From Parapedobacter indicus (GTDB taxonomy: Bacteria > Bacteroidota > Bacteroidia > Sphingobacteriales > Sphingobacteriaceae), in contig NZ_FOQO01000001.1 of NCBI RefSeq assembly GCF_900113765.1, forward strand, positions 1-64,000: a stretch of 64,000 bases of DNA, read 5' to 3'. Below are positions 38,083 to 51,672 of the stretch, piece by piece. How positions within the stretch are numbered: position 1 is the first letter of the stretch; every line of letters starts with the position of its first letter. Below the pieces are notes generated by a model. That model was not told the DNA's origin. It saw only the letters and a list, made by a program, of their open reading frames with translations, and made no database searches. The translations under genes were made by a program, and so were the position numbers.

Positions 38083-39768
38083 ATGTCAGACGAGAAAATC
38101 ATCTTTTCCATGGCGGGGGTAAATAAAGTGTATCCGCCTCAAAAGCAGGTGCTTAAAAACATTTACCTTTCTTTTTTTTATGGGGCCAAAATCGGTGTAA
38201 TCGGTCTTAATGGCTCGGGGAAATCGTCGCTGCTTAAAATCATTGCCGGTTTGGATACGTCCTATCAGGGAGAGGTGGTGTTTTCGCCCGGTTATTCCGT
38301 GGGTTACCTAGCTCAGGAACCTCAGCTGGACCCCCATAAGACGGTAAAGGAAGTGGTCGAAGAAGGAGTAGCCGAAATCACCGCGATCCTGCAGGAATAC
38401 GAGGAGATTAATGAGAAGTTCGGATTGCCTGAAGTGTACGAAAACGCAGACGAAATGGACAAATTGCTGGCTCGGCAGGGCGAGTTACAGGACAAAATCG
38501 ACTCCGTGGGCGCCTGGGAACTGGATGCCAAGCTGGAACGTGCGATGGATGCCTTACGCTGTCCTGAACCGGATCGGAAGGTGGACACATTGTCAGGAGG
38601 CGAGCGCCGCAGGGTGGCATTATGTCGCTTATTGCTCCAGGAACCGGATGTGCTTTTGCTTGATGAGCCTACTAACCACCTCGATGCGGAGTCTATCGAT
38701 TGGCTTGAGCAGCATTTACAACAGTATAAGGGAACCGTTATTGCCGTTACCCACGACCGTTATTTCCTTGATAACGTAGCCGGCTGGATACTGGAGCTCG
38801 ACCGCGGAGAGGGTATTCCGTGGAAAGGGAACTATTCTTCGTGGCTGGATCAAAAAGCGAAACGCCTTGCCCACGAAGAAAAAACGGAAAGTAAACGGCA
38901 GAAAACACTGGAACGCGAATTGGAATGGGTGCGCATGGCCCCGAAAGCCCGTCACGCCAAATCCAAAGCCCGTTTGCACAACTACGAAAAACTGGCTTCT
39001 GAAGAGACTAAGGAACGGGAAGACAGACTGGAACTTTTCATACCTCCCGGTCCGCGGTTGGGCAACGTCGTGATCGAAGCTCAACAGGTAAGTAAAGCGT
39101 ATGGCGACCGGATTCTTTTCGAAGGATTGAGCTTTTCGTTGCCTCCGGCGGGTATCGTGGGTATCATTGGCCCCAACGGAGCTGGAAAAACAACGCTTTT
39201 CCGGCTTATAACCGGTCAGGAGCAACCCGATAGCGGGACATTCCGCGTGGGCGAAACCGTGGCATTGGGTTATGTGGATCAATTGCACGACGACTTGAAT
39301 CCTGAAAAAACGGTGTGGGAAAACATCACCGGCGGCAACGAGAATATTTCGTTGGGCAGCCGGATGGTCAATTCCCGGGCATACGTGTCTAAATTCAATT
39401 TCAATGGTGGCGACCAGCAGAAAAAGGTCGGTGTACTCTCCGGCGGCGAACGCAACCGTGTTCACTTGGCCATCACCCTGAAAAAAGGCGCCAATGTGCT
39501 GCTGCTTGACGAACCAACCAACGACATCGATGTGAACACCCTAAGGGCGTTAGAAGAAGGCCTGGAGAATTTTGGCGGCTGCGCCGTGGTGATTTCGCAC
39601 GACCGATGGTTCCTTGACCGAATCTGTACGCACATCCTCGCCTTCGAAGGCGATTCCCAAGTGTATTTCTTTGAAGGGAATTATTCGGAATACGAAGAGA
39701 ATCGCAAAAAGCGTCTGGGCGATATGGCTCCCCAACGTATCCGGTACAAAAAACTGGTAAAGGGATGA
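38083..39768 (+). CDS. ettA: energy-dependent translational throttle ABC-F protein EttA
   Basis: A 561-residue ABC-F ATPase with two nucleotide-binding domains and no membrane part, which binds the ribosomal E site and gates early elongation by energy state. Walker A motifs are GLNGSGKS (41-48) and GPNGAGKT in the second half; both domains carry LSGGER and a DEPTNHLD or DEPTNDID Walker B. The arm and linker (ERELEWVRMAPKARHAKSKARLHNYEKL) match EttA. The ATG at 38083 gives the family's N-terminus (MSDEKIIFSMAGVNKVYPPQ); the upstream in-frame extension runs through the repeat element and is rejected. Its stop overlaps the kinase start (ATGATG), so the two are translationally coupled. Confidence 0.95.
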   Translation: MSDEKIIFSMAGVNKVYPPQKQVLKNIYLSFFYGAKIGVIGLNGSGKSSLLKIIAGLDTSYQGEVVFSPGYSVGYLAQEPQLDPHKTVKEVVEEGVAEITAILQEYEEINEKFGLPEVYENADEMDKLLARQGELQDKIDSVGAWELDAKLERAMDALRCPEPDRKVDTLSGGERRRVALCRLLLQEPDVLLLDEPTNHLDAESIDWLEQHLQQYKGTVIAVTHDRYFLDNVAGWILELDRGEGIPWKGNYSSWLDQKAKRLAHEEKTESKRQKTLERELEWVRMAPKARHAKSKARLHNYEKLASEETKEREDRLELFIPPGPRLGNVVIEAQQVSKAYGDRILFEGLSFSLPPAGIVGIIGPNGAGKTTLFRLITGQEQPDSGTFRVGETVALGYVDQLHDDLNPEKTVWENITGGNENISLGSRMVNSRAYVSKFNFNGGDQQKKVGVLSGGERNRVHLAITLKKGANVLLLDEPTNDIDVNTLRALEEGLENFGGCAVVISHDRWFLDRICTHILAFEGDSQVYFFEGNYSEYEENRKKRLGDMAPQRIRYKKLVKG

Positions 39769-40958
39769 TGGATACCGCCAAATTGCTGAAGGCGATTATC
39801 GAAAACGCCATCGATGGAATCATTACCATCGACCGCCACGGTATCGTGGATTCGATCAATCCTGCGGCATCCAATCTTTTCGGATACGAGGCACACGAGG
39901 TAATCGGTCATAATGTGTCGATGTTGATGCCCGAACCTGACCACAGCCGGCACGACCAGTACATCCATAATTACCTGGAAACCGGCGTAAAGAAAATCAT
40001 CGGTATTGGCAGGGAGGTAAGGGGGCTGCGAAAAAATGGGACCACATTTCCGTTTCGACTGGCCGTAAGCGAAGTGCATTATGAAAACAAGATCGCCTTT
40101 ACGGGCTTTGTGCACGATCTGTCGAAAGAAAAGGAAGCGGAGGAGAAGCTGATCCAACACATGGAGGAATTGGAGGCTACTGTCAGTAACCGCACAAAGG
40201 ATTTGATTAAATTGGTTTCCGAATTGGAAAAGACCAAATCCGAAGTGAGCCAGTCGCTGGAAAAGGAAAAAGAACTGAACCAACTTAAATCGCGTTTTGT
40301 ATCGATGGCGTCGCATGAATTCCGGACGCCGCTTAGTGCCGTTCAATTATCAGCCTCGCTGATTGAAAAGTACGCAGAAAAGCCCGATCTAGCTAATGTA
40401 CTTAAACATACCACTCGGATTAAAAATTCGGTACAGCTACTCACCAGCATCCTGAATGATTTCCTTTCCTTAGAGCGGCTCGAAGCCGGCAAAGTTTTGG
40501 CAAAAAACGAGGAGATAAACCTGGTAGAACTTGCGGAAGAAATCACGGAAGAGATGCAGCTAATCTGTAAAGCAAATCAGCACATCGTGTATCAGCATAC
40601 AGGTTCTGCCGGGAAATTTGCATTGGATGCCAACCTGTTGAAAAATAGTATTATTAATTTGATTTCCAATGCGATTAAGTATTCGGGGGAGAATACATTT
40701 ATCGAGTTTAATACGGAAATCAGTGACAATACCTGTACAATCATTATAAAAGACGATGGGATTGGCATCCCCGAGGACGAGCAGAAAAGCCTTTTTGAGC
40801 CGTTTTTCCGGGCCCACAACACCGGCAACATTCCGGGTACCGGTCTGGGACTCAACATCGTGAAAAGATATGTTTCACTGATGGGAGGGGAGGTGACCTG
40901 TCAAAGCGCGCAGGATAAGGGCGCTATTTTTACGCTTACATTCCGCACCATAGCATAG
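39765..40958 (+). CDS. FixL-like PAS sensor histidine kinase (probable oxygen sensor)
   Basis: A 397-residue soluble histidine kinase with no membrane segment. The PAS domain (about 10-125) is closely FixL-like: MPEPDHSRHDQYI holds His 63 at the position of the FixL proximal heme ligand, and IIGIGREV holds Arg 83 at the position of the FixL distal-pocket arginine; the other pocket residues (Arg206, His214 in Bradyrhizobium numbering) are Asn and Lys here. A coiled linker leads to a HisKA domain (SHEFRTPLSA, His 184) and an ATPase domain (Asn 302, DDGIGI 330-335, GTGLGL 358-363). It overlaps ettA by 4 bases and is followed 6 bases later by a receiver-Crp regulator and the cbb3 oxidase genes. 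Oxygen sensing is inferred; heme binding is untested. Confidence 0.88.
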   Translation: MMDTAKLLKAIIENAIDGIITIDRHGIVDSINPAASNLFGYEAHEVIGHNVSMLMPEPDHSRHDQYIHNYLETGVKKIIGIGREVRGLRKNGTTFPFRLAVSEVHYENKIAFTGFVHDLSKEKEAEEKLIQHMEELEATVSNRTKDLIKLVSELEKTKSEVSQSLEKEKELNQLKSRFVSMASHEFRTPLSAVQLSASLIEKYAEKPDLANVLKHTTRIKNSVQLLTSILNDFLSLERLEAGKVLAKNEEINLVELAEEITEEMQLICKANQHIVYQHTGSAGKFALDANLLKNSIINLISNAIKYSGENTFIEFNTEISDNTCTIIIKDDGIGIPEDEQKSLFEPFFRAHNTGNIPGTGLGLNIVKRYVSLMGGEVTCQSAQDKGAIFTLTFRTIA

Positions 40959-40964
40959 GGAAAA

Positions 40965-42029
40965 ATGGCAACTAAGCAAACAACTGTTTTGATCATCGAA
41001 GACAACGATGACATCCGCGAAAACACCAAGGAGATCCTCGAACTCACCGGCTATCAGGTCTATGATGCGCCCGAAGGTAAAACGGGCGTTGAATTGGCAC
41101 TCAACTATTTACCGGATGTTATCCTATGTGATATCATGATGCCCGAGCTGGATGGATTCGGTGTGTTGTACATGCTATCTAAACATCCACAAGCGGCGAC
41201 GATACCCTTTATTTTTTTGACGGCCAAATCCGAACGGGCAGACATGCGCAAGGCGATGGAGCTGGGAGCGGATGATTACCTGACCAAACCGTTTGACGAC
41301 ATCGAGTTGTTGAATGCGATTGAGACCCGCCTGAAAAAACGTAAGCAACTGGGGCCAGAAAGTAACCATCTGAAAAACCTGTATCTGAGCGAGAAAGAGC
41401 AGGAAGTTTTGCTAAAGGAGCTGGTAAGTGCTTCACGGATAAAGGTATACCGGAAAAAACAGTTTATTTACCAAGAAGGCGATTCGCCATTATATGTATA
41501 CTATGTCAAAAAAGGAAAAGTACGGCGGTTTCTGCACTACCTGGATGGGCGGGAGCTTTCAACCGATATCCATGCGGCCGACTCCTTTTTTGGCTACGGT
41601 GCGGTCTTGCGTCAGGAGCGCTACAGTGACAACGCCGAAACGCTGGAAGACGTGGAACTGGCCCTGATTGAAAAGGAGCAGTTCTTCGAGCTCCTGTACC
41701 GAAAGCCCGGCATCGCCAGCAAGTTTATCAAGTTGCTTTCAGGTAATATTCGGGGCAAGGAGGTTCAGCTTTTGGCCTTCGCTTACGATTCCGTCCGCAA
41801 GCGGGTGGCTAACGCACTGATTCATGTGGCCGAGAAGACGTCGGCCGAAACCACGGACGACGAGTGTCTAATCCGCATTTCACGTGATGACCTGGCCTCA
41901 CTTGCGGGTACTGCCAATGAAACTATCAGCCGGATGCTGGCCGATTTTAAAGACGAAAAACTTATCGCCAAAGAGGGGAATTCCATTCGAATCCTTTCCC
42001 TAACAAAACTTCGAAATATCAAGCAGTAA
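40965..42029 (+). CDS. response regulator: receiver fused to Crp/FNR-type DNA-binding module
   Basis: A 354-residue regulator. The receiver (1-125) has acidic residues Glu 12/Asp 13, phospho-acceptor Asp 56 (DVILCDIMMP), Thr 87 and Lys 108 (TKPF). A cyclic-nucleotide-binding-like beta-roll (about 150-270, QFIYQEGDSPLYVYYVKKGKVR) follows, then a Crp-type winged helix (305-350). The recognition helix reads NETISRML, with Glu 319, Ser 322 and Arg 323 as in FNR/FixK. No Cys cluster for an iron-sulfur centre is present, so any oxygen signal should come from the kinase through Asp 56. It starts 6 bases after the kinase gene. A palindrome lies 60 bases downstream of its stop, in front of the next operon. 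It amounts to FixJ and FixK joined in one chain. Confidence 0.92.
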   Translation: MATKQTTVLIIEDNDDIRENTKEILELTGYQVYDAPEGKTGVELALNYLPDVILCDIMMPELDGFGVLYMLSKHPQAATIPFIFLTAKSERADMRKAMELGADDYLTKPFDDIELLNAIETRLKKRKQLGPESNHLKNLYLSEKEQEVLLKELVSASRIKVYRKKQFIYQEGDSPLYVYYVKKGKVRRFLHYLDGRELSTDIHAADSFFGYGAVLRQERYSDNAETLEDVELALIEKEQFFELLYRKPGIASKFIKLLSGNIRGKEVQLLAFAYDSVRKRVANALIHVAEKTSAETTDDECLIRISRDDLASLAGTANETISRMLADFKDEKLIAKEGNSIRILSLTKLRNIKQ

Positions 42030-42088: not shown

Positions 42089-42108
42089 AAAGTGATCCAA
42101 ATCACTTT
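42089..42108. promoter_or_regulatory. Crp/FNR-type operator, perfect 8+4+8 palindrome
   Basis: AAAGTGATCCAAATCACTTT: two perfect 8-base arms around CCAA. The core GTGA-N6-TCAC equals the Crp consensus and also has the TGAT-N4-ATCA layout of FNR/FixK sites. Its centre (42098.5) is 51.5 bp before the first base of the -7 box at 42150. It lies between the receiver-Crp regulator and the LDH-like/hemN/ccoI operon. A related site has the same geometry before ccoNO. Confidence 0.8.
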
Positions 42109-42157: not shown

Positions 42158-42208
42158 TGACAGATGAATTTAACGGGGAGTAACATTCCTGAATATACAA
42201 ATGGACGA

Positions 42209-42646
42209 ATGAAAGCTATCGCCTACAGCATAAAACCACAAGAGAAGGAATATTTGGCAATAGCCAACGGGAAGAAACACGACTTGACATTGATTTCCAA
42301 TGAATTAAATATTCAGACGGTGTCGTATGCTCAGGGCAAAGAGGTGGTGATTGTATCTTCCTACGATATCCTGAACCGCGAAATGCTATGGGAACTGAAG
42401 AACGCAGGCGTGAAAAATATCATTACCCGCTGCCGGAATACCACCCACATTGACCTGAAAGAAGCTGCCCGCATGGGACTGAAAGTAGCCAATGCACCAG
42501 ACGACGATCAATCTGTAGCGAATATCGCTAAACAGACCATTCGTAATCTGAGTGCTTGGGAATCAGGAAAATGTGTGGGAAGAGCATGTTGTTGTCAGGG
42601 CGCTTGCTCCGCAGCGGAGGTTGGAGGCAAATCATCGTATCGATAG
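42209..42646 (+). CDS. stand-alone D-lactate-dehydrogenase N-domain with Cys-rich tail
   Basis: A 145-residue protein. Residues 1-98 resemble the substrate-binding N-terminal domain of D-2-hydroxyacid dehydrogenases (MKAIAYSIKPQEKEYL, LISNELNIQTVSYAQGKEVVIV, LKNAGVKNIITRCRNTTHIDLKEAARMGLKVANAP). The NAD-binding Rossmann domain and catalytic residues are absent. Instead the chain continues DDDQSVANIAKQTIRNLSAWE and ends in a Cys-rich segment with Cys 122, 127, 128, 129 and 133 (KCVGRACCCQGAC). It is not an obvious frameshift: no continuation of the dehydrogenase is seen downstream, where hemN starts 8 bases later. It is the first gene behind the operator, so it belongs to the putative oxygen regulon. 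A metal-binding or redox role is possible; function unknown. Confidence 0.75.
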   Translation: MKAIAYSIKPQEKEYLAIANGKKHDLTLISNELNIQTVSYAQGKEVVIVSSYDILNREMLWELKNAGVKNIITRCRNTTHIDLKEAARMGLKVANAPDDDQSVANIAKQTIRNLSAWESGKCVGRACCCQGACSAAEVGGKSSYR

Positions 42647-42653
42647 GGCAGAC

Positions 42654-44015
42654 ATGGCAAATAAATTAGAGGATCTAATACAACGCTACAATGTAGCGGC
42701 TCCGCGGTACACAAGTTACCCAACGGTGCCTTACTGGGATCAAGGTACGTGGCATCCCGATCTTTGGGTGGAGCATGTCCGGGCGCAGTTCGATGCATCA
42801 TCCGGACAGGGCATCAGTCTGTATGTCCACCTACCGTTTTGCGAAAGTTTATGTACCTACTGCGGTTGCAATACGCGGATCACCAAAAATCACGGTGTTG
42901 AAGCTCCTTATATCGATACATTGCTGGACGAGTGGCTCCTTTACCGGAATTATCTCGGATCGCAGGAAATCCCCATCCGTGAGCTCCATCTGGGAGGTGG
43001 AACACCCACCTTCTTTGCGCCACCGCAACTTCATCGACTGATTGACGGACTGCTGCGCAGCAATTGTGTGCCGGCAGATGCTGCATTTTCTTTCGAGGCA
43101 CATCCGGCAAACACGACAGCCGAACATCTGCAGGTTTTATACAATGAGGGATTCAGAAGATTGAGTCTGGGTATACAGGATTTTGATGTCCGTGTACAAC
43201 AGCTCATCAACCGCAGACAAACCGAAGCCGACGTATGGCGGGTGATGGAAAATGCCCGCCGTATCGGTTACACCTCCATCAATTTTGATTTGATCTATGG
43301 TTTGCCTTTGCAGACCCCCCAAAGTGTGTGCAGCACGGTTGAGAAAGCGCTGGCAATGCGGCCCGACCGTATTTCGTTTTACAGTTACGCGCATGTGCCC
43401 TGGATGAAACCCGGTCAACGACGTTATACGGAGGCCGATCTACCTGTTGGAAAAGCCAAACTGGATCTCTACCGGTTGGGTAAGGAACTGATCGTGCAGG
43501 CCGGATATCGGGATGTGGGGATGGATCATTTCGCCCTGCCGGAAGATGCTCTTTGCCTGGCCGCAAATGCAGGGCAGTTACACCGGAACTTCATGGGCTA
43601 TACTGACCGCTATACGCCGCTGCTAATCGGACTCGGTGTCTCATCGATCAGCGACTCGTGGACAGCGTTTGCGCAAAACGTAAAAACTGTGGAAGAATAC
43701 CAGGCGTTGGTCAATACCGGCAAGCTCCCCGTAACCAAAGGGCATGTTCTTTCATCGGGCGACTTAACCGTTAGGAACCATATTCTGGATGTCATGTGCC
43801 GCGGAACCACGTTGCTCGATAGGTCTATTCCCCAGTCCGCTCTTATATTGAGCCGGCTGGCACCAATGTTCGATGACGAATTGGTACAACAGGATGGCAA
43901 TCGGATTACCGTAACCAAACAGGGAGAGGCATTCCTGCGCAATATATGTATGGCCTTCGATGAGCGCCTGCATAAAAAACAGTATACACAGCCTGTTTTC
44001 AGTAAAGCTGTATGA
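42654..44015 (+). CDS. hemN: oxygen-independent coproporphyrinogen III oxidase HemN
   Basis: A 453-residue radical-SAM enzyme that makes protoporphyrinogen without oxygen. The iron-sulfur cluster motif is C63-x3-C67-x2-C70, with the family's extra Cys 72 (PFCESLCTYCGCN). LHLGGGTPTFF and NFDLIYGLPLQT are the SAM-binding strands, and the C-terminal HemN domain is present (YRDVGMDHFALPEDAL). The N-terminus YNVAAPRYTSYPTVPYW is typical and fixes the ATG at 42654; an in-frame ATG at 42552 lies inside the previous gene. Its stop overlaps the ccoI start (ATGA). Placement in a low-oxygen operon fits both its chemistry and the heme demand of cbb3 oxidase. Confidence 0.97.
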   Translation: MANKLEDLIQRYNVAAPRYTSYPTVPYWDQGTWHPDLWVEHVRAQFDASSGQGISLYVHLPFCESLCTYCGCNTRITKNHGVEAPYIDTLLDEWLLYRNYLGSQEIPIRELHLGGGTPTFFAPPQLHRLIDGLLRSNCVPADAAFSFEAHPANTTAEHLQVLYNEGFRRLSLGIQDFDVRVQQLINRRQTEADVWRVMENARRIGYTSINFDLIYGLPLQTPQSVCSTVEKALAMRPDRISFYSYAHVPWMKPGQRRYTEADLPVGKAKLDLYRLGKELIVQAGYRDVGMDHFALPEDALCLAANAGQLHRNFMGYTDRYTPLLIGLGVSSISDSWTAFAQNVKTVEEYQALVNTGKLPVTKGHVLSSGDLTVRNHILDVMCRGTTLLDRSIPQSALILSRLAPMFDDELVQQDGNRITVTKQGEAFLRNICMAFDERLHKKQYTQPVFSKAV

Positions 44016-46408
44016 TCGTATCTAACACCACCCAATGTTACCACTGTGGCGATGCAGTGTCCCATACGGTTTTTGAAGCCGATGGGCATCGGTTCTGCTG
44101 CCTGGGGTGTCAGAGCGTCTATCGGATTCTGAGTAGCAGCAATATGCAGCAATATTATCGGTACAACCGTCACCCCGGAAAGAAAAAGAGCGAGGTTTCC
44201 ACACGTTATGAATACCTCGACGAGGCAACGCTAACCGATAAATTGATCGACTTCAGAAACGATGAAATTACGATCGCAACCTTCTATATCCCATCCATTC
44301 ATTGCAGCTCCTGTGTCTGGTTACTCGAACATTTGTATAAGCTTAATCCGGCTATCGTGGTGTCGCGGAGTGACTTCTTGAAAAAACAGGTAAATATTAC
44401 GTTTAAGCATACGGAGCTCACGCTGCGTGGATTGGTGGAACTGCTGGTGGATATCGGTTACGAACCCAAGATTACGCTTCAGGATGTAATCAAGGAAGGG
44501 CAGAAGTTTTCGCAAAAAGGGTTGATTGCCAAGATTGCGGTGGCCGGGTTTTGCTTCGGGAATTCGATGATGTTGAGTTTTCCGGAGTATTTTGGCATGG
44601 GAACCTTCGAAGCACACTATGCCAAGATTTTTGGCTGGATGAACCTGGGTTTTTCGTTGCCCGTATTGCTTTATAGCGGGCGGGATTATTTCCGGTCTGC
44701 TTGGCAAAGTCTGCGGCATAAGGCACTCAACCTCGATGTCCCCCTGGCGCTCGGCATTGCGGTGCTGTTTGCCCGGACGGCGTGGGAAGTGTTGTCTGTT
44801 TCAGGGCCCGGTTTTGCCGACACGCTTTGCGGCTTGGTCTTTTTTCTGCTGGTGGGGCGATGGATACAGCAGCGGACCTATCATCACTTATCCTTTGAGC
44901 GTGATTACCGCTCGTATTTCCCGGTAGCTGTGACACGGCTCAGCGAAGACGGACCGAAACCAGTACCTCTGGCGGATATTCAGGTCGGCGACCGCCTGCT
45001 TATCCGTAACAACGAAATCGTGCCGGCAGATGCCATTTTGCTGAATGGGCAAGCAGCGGTCGATTTCAGTTTTGTGACCGGAGAATCGGAACCTGTTCAG
45101 AAGGTGCTCGGCGAGATCATTTATGCGGGCGGGCGGCAAACCGGCGAGGCCATCGAGCTGGAAGTGGTCAAGGCGGTCTCACAAAGCTACCTAACCCGAC
45201 TTTGGAATAACGAAGCATTCAAACCGCATGAACTGAATTTCCGCACGTTCAGCAATACGGTGAGCCGGTATTTTACGGTGGTGTTGCTGGGAGTAGCTTT
45301 CGCTGCCATGGTTTTTTGGGTTTTTGCGGGCGATACGGCTCGTGCTTGGGGAGCGTTTACCGCGGTATTGATCATCGCATGCCCCTGCGCGTTGGCATTG
45401 AGCAGCCCGTTTACGCTTTCTGCTGCATTGAGTATATTCGACAAAAACCGATTTTACATAAAAAATACAGCGGCTATCGAACAATTGGCAGCCATAGACT
45501 GCATCGTGTTTGATAAGACGGGGACCATTTCTTCGCCCGCGGCATCGCGGATGCGGTTTGAGGGAAATCTGTTGACCGACGAATTGGCCCTGGTGGTGGC
45601 CGCGTGCAAAAACTCCAATCACCCGCTGAGCCGGGAGTTGGTCAAATGGGCTGCTCCCAACGTGTCTGGATCTGTGCCTGTGAACCAATACTGCGAGGTT
45701 GCGGGCAGGGGTATCGAAGCCGTCGTGGCAAATCGCAGTGTACGCGTCGGAAATGCTGCATTTACAGGGGTGCCTAGCGGTGGAGGAACGGGAAGCAGGG
45801 TCTATGTGTCGATAGACGATGAGGTGAAGGGATGTTTTCTGGCAGAGCAGCCCTGGCGGGAAAACTTGCACGTAGTATTGGGTGAACTAGCGGCAGGGTG
45901 CCACCTGCACCTGATTTCCGGAGACAACGACAAAGAAAAAGCTCTGTTGCGCGGTATATTCCCGCCGCAGGCCGACCTGTTGTTTCATCAATTGCCCGTC
46001 GAAAAAATGGAATACATCCAGTCATTGCAGGCACAAAGTCATCGCGTATGCATGTTGGGCGATGGACTTAACGATGCCGGAGCACTAAAGCAGGCCAACC
46101 TGGGAATTGCGGTAAGTGATGACATCAATAACTTCTCGCCGGGATGCGATGCCATCCTCGACGGACGGTCGTTTGTAAAACTACCCCGCTTTTTACGGTT
46201 TGCCAAAGACGCAGTCAAGATTATTCACCTGAGCTTTGGCATCTCCCTTACCTACAATTTGGTCGGACTGAGTTTTGCGGTGAACGGAACCATGTCGCCT
46301 TTGTTTGCGGCGGTGCTGATGCCATTGAGTACGGTCACTATTATCGGTTTTACGACCGTTGCCACGCACCTGTATGCAACAAAAAATCAATTAATTAAGA
46401 GACAATGA
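44012..46408 (+). CDS. ccoI: copper-transporting P-type ATPase CcoI (FixI) for cbb3 oxidase
   Basis: A 798-residue P1B-type ATPase that supplies copper to the cbb3 active site. The N-terminus has the CcoI-specific metal site (CYHCGDAV and RFCCLGCQS), then a heavy-metal-associated domain with CxxC (IHCSSCVWLLEHL). Membrane helices follow, with the TGES actuator motif (FVTGESEPVQK), ion-channel motif CPC at residues 457-459 (IIACPCALALSS), phosphorylated Asp 501 in DKTGT, and hinge GDGLNDAGAL. Overlaps of 4 bases with hemN upstream and ccoS downstream show tight translational coupling. Length is normal. Confidence 0.95.
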   Translation: MIVSNTTQCYHCGDAVSHTVFEADGHRFCCLGCQSVYRILSSSNMQQYYRYNRHPGKKKSEVSTRYEYLDEATLTDKLIDFRNDEITIATFYIPSIHCSSCVWLLEHLYKLNPAIVVSRSDFLKKQVNITFKHTELTLRGLVELLVDIGYEPKITLQDVIKEGQKFSQKGLIAKIAVAGFCFGNSMMLSFPEYFGMGTFEAHYAKIFGWMNLGFSLPVLLYSGRDYFRSAWQSLRHKALNLDVPLALGIAVLFARTAWEVLSVSGPGFADTLCGLVFFLLVGRWIQQRTYHHLSFERDYRSYFPVAVTRLSEDGPKPVPLADIQVGDRLLIRNNEIVPADAILLNGQAAVDFSFVTGESEPVQKVLGEIIYAGGRQTGEAIELEVVKAVSQSYLTRLWNNEAFKPHELNFRTFSNTVSRYFTVVLLGVAFAAMVFWVFAGDTARAWGAFTAVLIIACPCALALSSPFTLSAALSIFDKNRFYIKNTAAIEQLAAIDCIVFDKTGTISSPAASRMRFEGNLLTDELALVVAACKNSNHPLSRELVKWAAPNVSGSVPVNQYCEVAGRGIEAVVANRSVRVGNAAFTGVPSGGGTGSRVYVSIDDEVKGCFLAEQPWRENLHVVLGELAAGCHLHLISGDNDKEKALLRGIFPPQADLLFHQLPVEKMEYIQSLQAQSHRVCMLGDGLNDAGALKQANLGIAVSDDINNFSPGCDAILDGRSFVKLPRFLRFAKDAVKIIHLSFGISLTYNLVGLSFAVNGTMSPLFAAVLMPLSTVTIIGFTTVATHLYATKNQLIKRQ

Positions 46409-46597: not shown

Positions 46598-46882
46598 TTA
46601 TAGTAATAGATTTACCAATGCGGTCCACTCTTCTTCCAATGTTACATCCGGCCGCTGTCGTCCCGCCCGTCGGTACCAATAGTCTGCATTCCATAAATCA
46701 CCTTCTTTCCGGTGTAAGTATGCGTGTACGTGTGCCGACTGGCGGTCATCCAGATCATTGACGAGATCGTGAGCATGCTCCCAATCGCCCTTACCATCGT
46801 ACCATAAGGCTTCCTGTTGTACGGTAAGCCCTATTGGGGGCAAATTCTGTTTTAAGGATTCGTTGAAGGTGTCAATGTTCAT
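46598..46882 (-). CDS. conserved small protein of unknown function
   Basis: A protein of about 94 residues, starting MNIDTFNESLKQNLPP (an in-frame ATG 7 codons upstream is also possible). The centre ALWYDGKGDWEHAHDLVND and HVHAYLHRKEGDLWNADYWYRRAGRQRP is a strongly patterned helical sequence resembling a widespread family of short uncharacterised proteins. It is acidic overall with many Trp/Tyr/His and no signal peptide. It is transcribed against the cbb3 genes, sitting between ccoS and the ccoNO regulatory region. I assign no function; the placement may be incidental. Confidence 0.78.
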   Translation of the reverse strand: MNIDTFNESLKQNLPPIGLTVQQEALWYDGKGDWEHAHDLVNDLDDRQSAHVHAYLHRKEGDLWNADYWYRRAGRQRPDVTLEEEWTALVNLLL

Positions 46883-46923
46883 GTCGAGTTCGCTACCATC
46901 CAAAGGTAGAAATTTTAATGCAA

Positions 46924-47103: not shown

Positions 47104-49230
47104 ATGCAGCTAACTAAATTCAATTACGACAACAAAATAGTCAGAAATTTTGGCATCGCCACCATCGTATGGGGTATTGTCGGGATGTCTGTGGGCCTGC
47201 TGATAGCCATACAGCTGGTATGGCCGTTCATGAACTTCGAACTGCAATACACCACATTCGGGCGTGTGCGCCCGCTGCATACCAATGCCGTCATTTTTGC
47301 ATTTGTGGGCAATGCCATCTTCATGGGGGTGTATTACTCGTTGCAACGGCTGCTCAAGGCCCGGATGTATAGCGACTTCCTGAGCCGGGTGCATTTCTGG
47401 GGTTGGCAGCTCATCATCCTCGCGGCAGCGATCACATTGCCCTTGGGTCTCACTACCTCCCACGAATATGCAGAGCTTGAATGGCCCATCGATATCGGCC
47501 TAACCATTATCTGGGTAGTTTTCGGTATCAATATGTTCGGTACCATCATCAAGCGACGTGAGCGGCATATGTATGTAGCCATTTGGTTTTACATCGCCAC
47601 CTTCGTCACCGTCGCGGTATTGCACATTGTCAATTCGGTACAGCTGCCCGTTTCGATGTGGAAGAGTTATTACCTGTATGCGGGCGTACAGGACGCATTG
47701 GTACAATGGTGGTATGGGCATAATGCCGTGGCATTTTTCCTTACGACACCCTACCTGGGTATGATGTATTACTTCTTACCCAAGATGGCCAACCGGCCGA
47801 TTTACTCGTATAAACTGAGTATTCTACACTTTTGGTCACTGATTTTCATCTACATCTGGGCCGGCCCGCACCACCTGTTATACACTTCATTGCCGGGGTG
47901 GGTGCAATCGCTTGGTGTAGCATTTTCAGTGATGCTCATCGCACCAAGCTGGGGCGGCATGATCAATGGGCTACTCACGCTGCGCGGCGCTTGGGATAAA
48001 GTGCGTACCGATCCGACGTTAAAATTCATGGTCGTAGCGCTTACCGCCTATGGTATGGCCACCTTCGAAGGGCCGATGCTTTCGCTGAAACAGGTGAATG
48101 CCATTGCGCACTTCACCGATTGGATCGTGGCACACGTGCACGTTGGAGCGCTGGGATGGAACGGCTTCATGACGTTCGCCATCCTTTATTGGCTGATACC
48201 GCGGATTTATAAAACCGAGCTGTATTCGAAAAAGCTGGCTTCCGCACATTTCTGGATCGGTACGCTGGGTATCCTTTTCTACGCGATTCCGATGTATTGG
48301 GCCGCTGTGGTGCAAGGGCTGATGTGGAAAGAATTTACACCTGAAGGTGTATTGAAATACCCAAATTTTCTGGCGACCACCCTTCAGATCATTCCCATGC
48401 ATTTATTGCGGGCCATAGGTGGTACACTTTACTTGTCCGGTGTAATTCTGATGACCTATAACCTGGTGAAAACCATGAGACAGGGACGACTATTGGCCAA
48501 TGAACCGGCAGAAGCACCCGAACTAGTGCCGGTGGTAGTCAACGAACGCGCACCGCACCGCAGACTGGAGCGCAAGCCCATCTTGTTTATGGCATTGGCA
48601 TTGATTACCATTCTCATCGGGGGCATGGTACAGATGATGCCTACATTTATGATTTCATCCAACGTACCCACCATCGCCAGCGTACAGCCCTATACCGCAT
48701 TGGAGTTACAGGGCCGTGATTTGTACATCCGTGAGGGGTGTGTCAACTGCCATACACAGACCGTCCGTCCATTCCGCTCAGAAACCGTGCGCTATGGGGA
48801 CTATAGCAAGGCCGGCGAATTTGTCTACGACCATCCGTTCCTTTGGGGGTCAAAGCGGACGGGGCCAGATCTCCATCGTATAGGCAAAAAATATCCTCAT
48901 AAATGGCATTTCGACCACATGCTCGACCCTACCATTACCTCACCGGGAAGTATCATGCCTCCCTATCCCTGGCTGATCGAGCAGCGATTGGACACGGCTG
49001 CAACCAAAGCCAAGCTGAACGCGATGCGGCTATTGGGAGTACCGTACACGGATGCGGATATCAACGCTGCGAATGCCGATCTCAGGGAGCAGGCCGAAGG
49101 CATTGCCACAGACCTCAGTCAGCAGGGTGTAGACGTGCGAGCAGACCGTGAAATCATTGCGTTGATCGCTTACCTGCAACGACTGGGAACGGATATTAAC
49201 GTGCCCGTCGGAACGGCAACAAATGAATAA
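47104..49230 (+). CDS. ccoNO: fused cbb3-type cytochrome oxidase subunits CcoN-CcoO
   Basis: A 708-residue fusion. Residues 1 to about 460 are CcoN, the 12-helix catalytic subunit, with heme/copper ligands His 59 (RPLHTNAV), His 206 (WYGHNAV), His 256-257 (GPHHLLY) and His 344/346 (VAHVHVGALG). A charged linker leads to the CcoO part: a membrane anchor (IVL-rich helix near 493-515) and a monoheme c domain with C546-V-N-C-H550 and a distal Met in GSIMPPYPWL. Fusion of N and O in one chain is usual in Bacteroidota. It works in the inner membrane reducing oxygen at low concentration. Promoter, operator and leader hairpin lie upstream; ccoQ, ccoP, ccoG and ccoH follow. Confidence 0.97.
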   Translation: MQLTKFNYDNKIVRNFGIATIVWGIVGMSVGLLIAIQLVWPFMNFELQYTTFGRVRPLHTNAVIFAFVGNAIFMGVYYSLQRLLKARMYSDFLSRVHFWGWQLIILAAAITLPLGLTTSHEYAELEWPIDIGLTIIWVVFGINMFGTIIKRRERHMYVAIWFYIATFVTVAVLHIVNSVQLPVSMWKSYYLYAGVQDALVQWWYGHNAVAFFLTTPYLGMMYYFLPKMANRPIYSYKLSILHFWSLIFIYIWAGPHHLLYTSLPGWVQSLGVAFSVMLIAPSWGGMINGLLTLRGAWDKVRTDPTLKFMVVALTAYGMATFEGPMLSLKQVNAIAHFTDWIVAHVHVGALGWNGFMTFAILYWLIPRIYKTELYSKKLASAHFWIGTLGILFYAIPMYWAAVVQGLMWKEFTPEGVLKYPNFLATTLQIIPMHLLRAIGGTLYLSGVILMTYNLVKTMRQGRLLANEPAEAPELVPVVVNERAPHRRLERKPILFMALALITILIGGMVQMMPTFMISSNVPTIASVQPYTALELQGRDLYIREGCVNCHTQTVRPFRSETVRYGDYSKAGEFVYDHPFLWGSKRTGPDLHRIGKKYPHKWHFDHMLDPTITSPGSIMPPYPWLIEQRLDTAATKAKLNAMRLLGVPYTDADINAANADLREQAEGIATDLSQQGVDVRADREIIALIAYLQRLGTDINVPVGTATNE

Positions 49231-49248
49231 CCTACTAAAATACAAACG

Positions 49249-49434
49249 ATGTTTAAGCAAATAACGGATTTAAGCGGCAATGAGTGGTATCTCATTGCGT
49301 CGCTGTGGATTTTCCTCGTCTTCTTCATAGCAGTGGGCATCATGCTGTTCCGTATGCCGAAAGAGGATGTCAACTACATGAAAGGATTGCCCGTGGATGA
49401 AGCGGAGAAGCCAAACGATGATTTAACAAACTAA
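49249..49434 (+). CDS. ccoQ: CcoQ-like small subunit of cbb3 oxidase
   Basis: A 61-residue protein with one membrane helix (LIASLWIFLVFFIAVGIMLF) and a short charged C-terminal tail (RMPKEDVNYMKGLPVDEAEK). Its size, topology and position between ccoNO and ccoP match CcoQ, which stabilises the oxidase core. Sequence conservation in this family is low, so the call leans on context. Its stop is immediately followed by the ccoP ATG. Confidence 0.8.
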   Translation: MFKQITDLSGNEWYLIASLWIFLVFFIAVGIMLFRMPKEDVNYMKGLPVDEAEKPNDDLTN

Positions 49435-50292
49435 ATGCAGCAGACCATGAAACTAATTTTCATAGATTCTTCCAACGATATCCTTATTGTTGCGCTCATT
49501 GTGGTAATGGCCGTTGTATTGGCTGCAGCATGGGTGGTGTTAAGGGCGATGCGTACCATGCTGCATATCCTAATTCCGCATGCGTTGGAAGCAGAAAAGT
49601 CTAACCTGACCGAGGCTAAGACCGCCCGGCGGAATCGGCGTCGGCAGTGGTGGAACAAGCTGATGGGGCTACGTCCCTTAGCGGAAGAAAAAGATCTGGT
49701 GATTGACCATGAGTATGATGGCATTAAAGAGCTAGATAATCCGGTTCCTGCCTGGTTTAATGGTATGTTTTATGGCAGTATGGTGTTTGCTGCGGTCTAT
49801 TTGTGTGTGTACCATGTGTTTGGCTGGGGGCCCAATCAAGACCAGGAATATGCCCAAGAGATGGAACGGGCGGAGCAAGCCAGACAGGAGTGGCTGGCAC
49901 AGGCAGCGGACAATGTCGATGAAAACACCGTGGCGATAGACGCAAGTCCCGAGACCGTCGCGGCCGGAATGGCCATTTTTACCCAGAATTGCATTGCCTG
50001 CCATGGGGGCGCGGGAGAAGGGGGGATCGGGCCAAATCTAACGGATGACTACTGGCTTCATGGCGGCGAGGTACAGGACATATTTAAAGTGATTAAGTAC
50101 GGTGTATTGGATAAAGGTATGGTACCTTGGGAACAGAGCCTAACACCGGCTCAGATTGCTGAGGTAGCTAATTACATCCTTACGCTCCGCGGGACAAACC
50201 CACCGAATGCAAAGGAACCACAGGGAAACAAGGTGGAGTATGGCGCAAAGCAGGGCGATGCGGAAGCGGAAGTTGCCGAAACAGCCGGATAA
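49435..50292 (+). CDS. ccoP: cbb3 oxidase c-type cytochrome subunit CcoP (monoheme)
   Basis: A 285-residue membrane cytochrome c. An N-terminal helix (ILIVALIVVMAVVLAAAWVV) is followed by the CcoP/FixP N-domain (DHEYDGIKELDNPVPAWFNGMFYG, second helix). A single c-heme motif C186-I-A-C-H190 lies in a domain containing GEGGIGPNLTDDYWLHGG and a Met ligand candidate in DKGMVPW. Proteobacterial CcoP has two hemes; the single-heme form is usual in Bacteroidota. The ATG at 49435 directly follows the ccoQ stop; an ATG at 49447 is an alternative. It passes electrons to CcoO. ccoG follows 18 bases later. Confidence 0.95.
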   Translation: MQQTMKLIFIDSSNDILIVALIVVMAVVLAAAWVVLRAMRTMLHILIPHALEAEKSNLTEAKTARRNRRRQWWNKLMGLRPLAEEKDLVIDHEYDGIKELDNPVPAWFNGMFYGSMVFAAVYLCVYHVFGWGPNQDQEYAQEMERAEQARQEWLAQAADNVDENTVAIDASPETVAAGMAIFTQNCIACHGGAGEGGIGPNLTDDYWLHGGEVQDIFKVIKYGVLDKGMVPWEQSLTPAQIAEVANYILTLRGTNPPNAKEPQGNKVEYGAKQGDAEAEVAETAG

Positions 50293-50310
50293 ACGAGGGG
50301 AAGGAACGTC

Positions 50311-51672
50311 ATGGGGACAACAGTCACGGGGTCAAAACCCAAACGCAACTGGATTTATGCCAAGAAACCGGCTGGCAGCTGGTTCAATCGCCGGCAGTGG
50401 TTTGGCTACTCGCTTTTGGTATTTTTTATTGCCGCACCCTTCATCAAAATAGGTGGCGAGCCGTTCTTGCTGTTCAATATTGTTGATCGTAAGTTTGTGC
50501 TGTTCGGAAATGTATTCTGGCCGCAGGATTTGCATATTTTCGTGTTTGGGATGCTGATTGCTATGGTATGCATCGTCCTGTTTACAGTGGTTTATGGTCG
50601 CGTGTGGTGCGGTTGGGCTTGTCCCCAAACCATCTTCATGGAGTTGATTTTCCGGCGGATCGAATATTGGATTGAGGGCGACTGGTTGCAGCAGAAAAAG
50701 TTAAATCAGGGGCCCAATACGACTGTCAAATATGTTAAGAAAATCACGAAGCATACGGTCTTCTTGTTCATATCTTTTTTGATCTCCAATATTTTCCTGG
50801 CCTACCTCATTGGTGTTGACCAGCTTTGGAAGATCATGGCAGATCCGGTGAGCCAGCATCTGGGTGGATTTGTTTCAATTATCTTGTTTACGTTGGTGTT
50901 CTATGGCGTATTCGCTTATCTACGGGAAATTGTTTGCACGACGATCTGTCCGTACGGCAGGCTGCAAGGTGTGCTGTTAGATGACCAAAGCATCACCATT
51001 GCATATGACCATCGTCGGGGTGAGCCGCGCGGTCATCGGAGAAAGGGAGTTACACAGACCATCGGCGATTGCGTAGACTGTAACCTTTGTGTTCAGGTAT
51101 GCCCAACGGGCATTGATATCCGGAATGGTTTACAGATGGAATGTGTAAGCTGTACGGCCTGCATCGATGCGTGTGATGAGGTCATGGAAAAATTAGATCG
51201 TCCCAAGCGCCTGATCGGCTTTTATTCCGTAAGTGAAATTGAAGGCAGCAGAAAAAAATCGGGAAATGGCCGCGCCATTGCCTATACCGTGGTACTTGCC
51301 GTTTTGGTGACGGTGTTTGGATGGCTTATTTTCAGTCGTTCGCAGGTCGACGGTACGCTGTTGCGTGCAAAAGGCAGCAGCTATCAGGTCCATGAAGATG
51401 GCACGGTGAGCAACCTCTATAGCTTGGAGCTGATCAATAAAACCAGTAGTGACATACCCTTTACATTGGACGCACTGGACGGAAATATGACCGTTCGGGT
51501 AGTTAATCCGCTGGTTGAACTCAAGAGTGGCGCCACGGCACAACTTACTTTTTTTCTTGTTAGTCCACAGCAGTCGGTGAAGACTTACAAAACCGATGTG
51601 AAAATCGGTGTGGTATCCAACGGAAAAGTAATCGAGACGATGAAAACCACCTTTGTAGCCCCGCCGAAATAG
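50311..51672 (+). CDS. ccoG: cbb3 oxidase assembly ferredoxin CcoG
   Basis: A 453-residue membrane polyferredoxin that reduces copper for cbb3 assembly. Membrane helices alternate with Cys motifs: WCGWACPQTIFME, TTICPYGRLQGVLLDD, and a two-cluster ferredoxin domain (CVDCNLCVQVCPTGIDIRNGLQ, then CVSCTACIDACDEVMEKLDR). A further helix (AYTVVLAVLVTVFGWLIF) leads to an Ig-like C-terminal domain (SNLYSLELINKTSSDIPFTL). This order is that of CcoG/FixG. It is cotranscribed with ccoP and followed by ccoH. Confidence 0.96.
   Translation: MGTTVTGSKPKRNWIYAKKPAGSWFNRRQWFGYSLLVFFIAAPFIKIGGEPFLLFNIVDRKFVLFGNVFWPQDLHIFVFGMLIAMVCIVLFTVVYGRVWCGWACPQTIFMELIFRRIEYWIEGDWLQQKKLNQGPNTTVKYVKKITKHTVFLFISFLISNIFLAYLIGVDQLWKIMADPVSQHLGGFVSIILFTLVFYGVFAYLREIVCTTICPYGRLQGVLLDDQSITIAYDHRRGEPRGHRRKGVTQTIGDCVDCNLCVQVCPTGIDIRNGLQMECVSCTACIDACDEVMEKLDRPKRLIGFYSVSEIEGSRKKSGNGRAIAYTVVLAVLVTVFGWLIFSRSQVDGTLLRAKGSSYQVHEDGTVSNLYSLELINKTSSDIPFTLDALDGNMTVRVVNPLVELKSGATAQLTFFLVSPQQSVKTYKTDVKIGVVSNGKVIETMKTTFVAPPK

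Follow-up and report, generated by a model that had tools for sequence, protein, structure and literature searches.

Organization of the P0001 locus

We analyzed a window of 64,000 nucleotides, the whole stretch of Parapedobacter indicus DNA introduced above, in which features are on the forward strand unless stated otherwise. A FixL-type sensor kinase carrying heme PAS, HisKA and HATPase domains (39765-40958; Pfam) is followed by a regulator that joins a REC domain to a CRP/FNR-type protein in a FixJ/FixK-like fusion (40965-42029; Pfam). The PAS domain of the kinase matches the FixL structure 1dp6 at 1e-30 and retains the SRHD and IGR segments. The next feature is an FNR/FixK-type palindromic operator, AAGTGATCCAAATCACTT (42090-42107; core 42092-42105), whose core matches GTGATN4ATCAC perfectly, as no other site in the whole window does. 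The operator lies about 104 bp upstream of the start codon of the gene for P0001, a short Cys-tailed protein of 145 amino acids (42209-42646).

The P0001 gene is followed after 7 nt by hemN, which encodes an oxygen-independent coproporphyrinogen III oxidase (42654-44015; TIGR00538, 404 bits for a cut-off of 325), then by a gene for a ccoI-type P-type ATPase (44012-46408) and by the cbb3 oxidase genes ccoNO, ccoP and ccoG (47104-51672), all assigned from Pfam and family matches. The initial annotation had placed P0001 first behind the operator and ahead of hemN and ccoI, and this order holds. The ccoN and ccoO genes are fused and encode one protein of 708 amino acids (47104-49230) that matches PRK14485, the bifunctional cbb3 subunit I/II. 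Between ccoI and ccoNO, an open reading frame of 101 amino acids on the reverse strand (46598-46903) has no match in Pfam, but its translation resembles that of a protein, with a Trp/Tyr-rich C-terminus, and it may be a real gene.

P0001 is a D-lactate dehydrogenase substrate domain with a Cys-rich tail

P0001 is the substrate domain of a D-lactate dehydrogenase (D-LDH) without the NAD domain and with a Cys-rich tail. An in-frame ATG also exists at 42164, ahead of the annotated start at 42209, and the latter is supported by the common start of the orthologues at the MKxxAYxI position. Residues 7-107 match PF00389 (2-Hacid_dh) at 1e-10, the sole Pfam family passing its own cut-off in P0001, where no NAD-domain family did so, and residues 1-105 are matched by D-LDHs of the PDB.

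In the D-LDH fold, the NAD domain is an insert within the substrate domain, and P0001 keeps both flanks. The N-terminal segment (residues 1-97; 42209-42499) is followed by a junction (42500-42520) at which, in the alignment to full-length orthologues, about 200 residues corresponding to the NAD domain are missing. Beyond it, alignment and model place the final helix of the substrate domain (residues 103-118; 42515-42562), which in full-length forms comes after the NAD domain. This internal deletion removes the NAD-binding Rossmann domain with its GxGxxG motif, and the catalytic Arg, Glu and His of D-LDH all lie in the part that P0001 lacks. The observation that no dehydrogenase remnant is found downstream of the gene is correct, because the C-terminal remnant lies inside P0001 itself (residues about 103-121).

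We modeled P0001 with AF2 on a shallow alignment of the protein and four orthologues (pLDDT 82.7, pTM 0.79); a poor single-sequence model (pLDDT 50) was set aside. The best fold matches of the model are D-LDHs, and neither the fold search nor Pfam found a REC domain. Residues 1-128 superimpose on residues 1-330 of the D-LDH chain 4cuj (Z 22.5, rmsd 1.6), so that P0001 retains the beginning and the end of the enzyme and lacks its middle. These matches bear out the initial description of P0001 as a substrate-domain fold devoid of NAD domain and catalytic residues. The Cys tail sits outside the folded core with low confidence, the end of the model (129-145) being unreliable.

The same description had P0001 ending with five Cys. 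All five are present in the translation (residues 122, 127, 128, 129 and 133), but only four are conserved among orthologues, where position 128 is occupied by A, V, Q, H, I or R, and another 12 residues follow the tail. The conserved motif is thus C122-x4-C127-x-C129-x3-C133 (42572-42607).

Short and full-length proteins occupy the same slot and share the tail

We then compared P0001 with its relatives across Sphingobacteriaceae, in which the gene order is FixL-type kinase, REC-CRP regulator, slot gene and hemN. A match was found in 111 of 151 genomes, the weakest matches being ordinary D-LDHs. We read 67 short proteins (about 120-170 amino acids), made of the two substrate-domain segments and the tail, and 44 full-length ones (about 325-351 amino acids); both forms are found in the same slot. 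Allowing at most one mismatch, TGATN4ATCA is present within 260 bp upstream at 102 of the 111 orthologous loci, compared to about 15% of shuffled sequences, and it precedes both short and full-length slot genes.

Both forms end in the same tail, with all four Cys (C-x4-C-x-C-x3-C) in 55/67 short and 36/44 full-length proteins; in the remaining 12 and 8, respectively, the set is incomplete, the tail having been lost in some lineages. The tail is therefore not a feature of the truncated form only, since full-length dehydrogenases of the slot already carry it. Neither of the two Cys codons predominates at any of the four conserved positions, which indicates that conservation acts at the protein level; together with conservation of the tail across genera, this rules out a chance cluster of Cys. 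No full-length match to the tail was detected outside Sphingobacteriaceae in searches of class and phylum genomes with a first-look filter that can miss weak matches; D-LDH homologues of other families lack the tail and are located outside this slot. A profile search of the PDB gave no known metal site for the tail; it yielded only short Cys matches to an aspartic protease and a scorpion toxin, which were judged to be chance. Our literature search retrieved no paper on this gene with the terms tried.

Several lineages depart from the common pattern. Genome G135 has three related copies (L045, L072 and L073), namely an in-slot full-length form with an intact tail and the catalytic Arg changed to Ser, and two orphans, of which the short one has the whole tail and the full-length one has none. 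One in-slot full-length clade (L058, L060, L063 and L064) has intact catalytic residues and no Cys tail, and may consist of reverted plain enzymes. In genus g20, three short forms (L104, L105 and L106) have lost the tail wholly while their relatives L054, L055 and L103 retain three tail Cys; this is a lineage with an eroding Cys site. In the full-length L111 (G794, a genome with neither HemN nor cbb3), the last tail Cys is replaced by the ending KCVGKACVCAKTAGL, probably through a recent frameshift.

The NAD domain was lost repeatedly

In a tree rooted with canonical D-LDHs, the slot proteins group together with a support of 100 and full-length forms are basal within this clade, so that the full form is ancestral and the short form derived. 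Losses were counted on an independent tree of hemN and the regulator, all trees being quick searches. On this tree, the short/full label changes 10 times, 8 of the changes being forced by strong branches; when only losses are allowed, 11 events are needed, or 8 after collapsing branches under 95. A tree built from only the 141 shared columns has poor resolution and, taken alone, requires no more than one loss.

The junctions also differ between short forms. L091 retains SPLVIADHT...IPHHLLTSDALQ, L101 retains VPLLKELSHTKILIAPHQAGMTDEALQ, and L093 and L038 are cut at other places than these two. The full-length protein nearest in sequence to L093, L113, is also its neighbor on the hemN and regulator tree; for L038 it is L109, whose relatives L069 and L115 neighbor L038 on that tree. 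Such agreement is expected for deletion in place. Taken together, the NAD domain was lost about 8-11 times, apparently independently, and some short forms may have spread horizontally.

Selection preserves the scaffold and the tail

Judging from the sequences, short forms are under purifying selection (dN/dS of 0.02-0.18 between close pairs). Seven residues (E12, E14, K22, T27, N31, K44 and W117) are nearly invariant in both forms and mostly not common to ordinary D-LDHs; the first six are slot-specific residues of the N-terminal segment. The substrate-binding Gly77, which is Gly in 84% of full forms, is replaced in short forms. Most full-length forms retain GxGxxG and the catalytic Arg, Glu and His. 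Six of them have lost catalytic residues or a GxGxxG glycine while keeping all four Cys: in L123 the catalytic residues are K/D/Y, in L071 the His is changed to Arg and GxGxxG is broken, and in L072, L126, L127 and L129 the catalytic Arg is changed to Ser. The comparison indicates that scaffold and tail are retained by selection and that dehydrogenase chemistry is dispensable.

These patterns agree with the initial view that P0001 is no simple truncation, and describe it as a conserved, non-catalytic derivative of the D-LDH substrate domain with a selected Cys tail in the oxygen regulon. C-terminal truncation and dehydrogenase decay are ruled out by the retained C-terminal helix and tail and by the low dN/dS. 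By the same comparison, P0001 is neither a lone oddity nor a C-terminal truncation. Decay of this single copy, which the initial annotation had named as the finding that would overturn its view, is countered by the 67 short forms. Homologues bearing the same tail lie beside hemN, and in several genera also beside ccoI, in agreement with the check suggested in the initial annotation.

The slot protein follows the sensor pair

To identify the likely partner, we scored co-occurrence in the 151 genomes with thresholds of 1e-5 and 1e-50, weak matches including paralogues. The presence or absence of the slot protein matches that of the regulator in 147 genomes (108 with both, 39 with neither) and differs from it in 4. 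Eight genomes (G780, G836, G818, G798, G805, G794, G022 and G002) have the kinase, the regulator and the slot protein but no HemN orthologue, the best match scoring at most 91 bits compared to 566-601 for true orthologues, and no cbb3 apart from a 33% distant oxidase in G805. Conversely, G004, G023 and G046 possess HemN and cbb3 but neither the slot protein nor such a regulator. This double dissociation and the agreement with the regulator link the slot protein functionally most closely to the sensor pair; some of the co-occurrence with the regulator could result simply from their lying in one operon.

The best-surviving alternative, which we consider possible but improbable, is a HemN accessory that carries an Fe-S cluster or iron on its Cys4 tail, serving as cluster donor or redox partner and thereby aiding heme supply to cbb3. 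In its favor, hemN lies directly 3' of the slot gene at 100 of 111 loci, with a median gap of 2 nt (99 loci) and many overlaps, an arrangement typical of translational coupling. Against this stand the eight genomes without HemN and cbb3, seven of which still have a slot protein with four Cys (5 genomes) or three (2 genomes), the tail being lost in one, and also the orphan copy L045, which retains the tail away from hemN. Tail loss did not differ significantly between HemN-less and hemN-adjacent loci (four Cys in 5/8 and 85/100, respectively; p 0.13).

Two further explanations are unlikely, and about equally so. In one, the slot protein is a microaerobic D-lactate dehydrogenase with the Cys tail as a redox or metal switch, and short forms are leftovers with no function of their own. 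Low-oxygen fermentation makes sense, and the many full-length forms that look catalytically intact may still be enzymes. This is difficult to reconcile with the short forms, which combine low dN/dS with conservation across genera and have given up the substrate Gly but not the N-terminal and tail residues, and with catalytically dead full-length forms that retain the tail; moreover, a canonical D-LDH is encoded elsewhere in the P. indicus genome. In the other, the protein is stabilized by Zn and serves as a scaffold, or as a subunit partnering a second 2-hydroxyacid dehydrogenase or dimerizing with itself, and takes no part in signalling or assembly. Cys4 patterns are frequent sites of structural Zn and D-LDHs are dimers, but the tail lies outside the folded core in our model and the linkage to the FixL pair is left unexplained. 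The least probable is the initial proposal of a copper or iron carrier or store for cbb3 assembly: a tail rich in thiolates might hold Cu(I) and ccoI comes after hemN in several genera, but ccoI is outside the operon in many others, at least 7 genomes keep the slot protein without any cbb3 oxidase, and the three cbb3 genomes cited above lack it, so that such a role as main function is weakened.

A proposed FixT-like modulator of FixL signalling

Over a copper or iron carrier for cbb3, we favor, by analogy, a modulator of FixL signalling that resembles FixT and depends on the Cys4 tail, to which we give a probability of roughly 40%. A redox switch, also suggested in the initial annotation, comes close to this reading. 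The ancestor was a full-length D-2-hydroxyacid dehydrogenase that acquired the four-Cys tail and, in Sphingobacteriaceae, a fixed place behind the FixL-type kinase and the REC-CRP regulator. What remained useful was the substrate-domain scaffold with its Cys4 tail, and the inserted NAD domain was deleted many times; the comparison of genomes shows this history of recruitment and repeated domain loss. The slot protein would be expressed under the FixK-type operator of the pathway itself and bind a metal through C122, C127, C129 and C133, most plausibly as an oxygen-labile Fe-S cluster, and its conserved slot-specific surface may act back on the kinase or the regulator. Signalling, and hence heme and cbb3 output, would thus be tuned to iron, redox or oxygen. 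Several observations count against this FixT-like function: the tail resembles no known metal site and has low confidence in the model, the spacing to hemN is tight wherever hemN is present, which also fits a HemN partner, some of the co-occurrence may reflect operon linkage, the four Cys are incomplete in some lineages, among them 3 of the 8 HemN-less genomes, many full-length forms look catalytically intact, and FixT is a receiver domain of unrelated origin.

Somewhat more tentatively, the slot protein may represent a second, unrelated invention of FixT, in which a recruited, Cys4-tailed enzyme was independently stripped of its NAD domain in many lineages and became an Fe-S or redox feedback regulator of the FixL pathway. 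This carries with it, just as tentatively, the idea that dead full-length and freshly deleted intermediates persist in sister species.

Repeated loss in place of the same inserted domain, with different breakpoints and an appended Cys motif kept, constitutes a rare natural experiment: it reveals the part of an enzyme on which selection acts, and this part is not the enzyme activity. If the FixT-like function is true, Bacteroidota would possess, for heme and microaerobic respiration, a second level of oxygen or iron sensing that is built on a D-LDH scaffold and convergent with that of Alphaproteobacteria. Proteins annotated as truncated or full-length lactate dehydrogenases in this slot may be regulators.

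Comparison with known systems

FixT of Caulobacter crescentus is a small protein that inhibits FixL and limits porphyrin build-up; it binds an oxygen-labile Fe-S cluster through four Cys, and its loss leads to porphyrin accumulation (PMC7078487). P0001 resembles it as a small alpha/beta protein with four conserved Cys, FixT's four being functionally important (PMC7078487), and probably also in belonging to a FixL oxygen-sensor pathway controlling hemN. The slot gene would hold a similar position in the circuit, with a FixK-type operator, FixL and the regulator adjacent, and hemN in the output. However, FixT is a receiver domain with its C-x2-C-x2-C-x4-C motif (C53, C56, C59 and C64) inside the domain (PMC7078487), whereas P0001 derives from a D-LDH and bears C-x4-C-x-C-x3-C in a tail. 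The two are not homologous, and P0001 may, by analogy, inhibit the kinase.

P0001 is homologous to D-LDHs (PF00389 with nested PF02826), of which it keeps the whole bipartite substrate domain, and full-length orthologues occupy the same slot; it differs by the added Cys4 tail and slot-specific invariant residues and by the absence of the substrate-loop Gly, the catalytic residues and the NAD domain. The transcriptional corepressor CtBP is likewise a regulator that arose from a D-2-hydroxyacid dehydrogenase, and related structures are among the fold matches of the model, but CtBP retains the NAD domain and binds NAD(H), while the short slot forms discard that domain. Finally, domain atrophy describes a functional remainder after large structural parts are lost (PMC4432964), and the short form is such a remainder; here, a complete inserted domain was removed repeatedly and the host domain stayed whole, so that the slot proteins represent domain loss and not atrophy.
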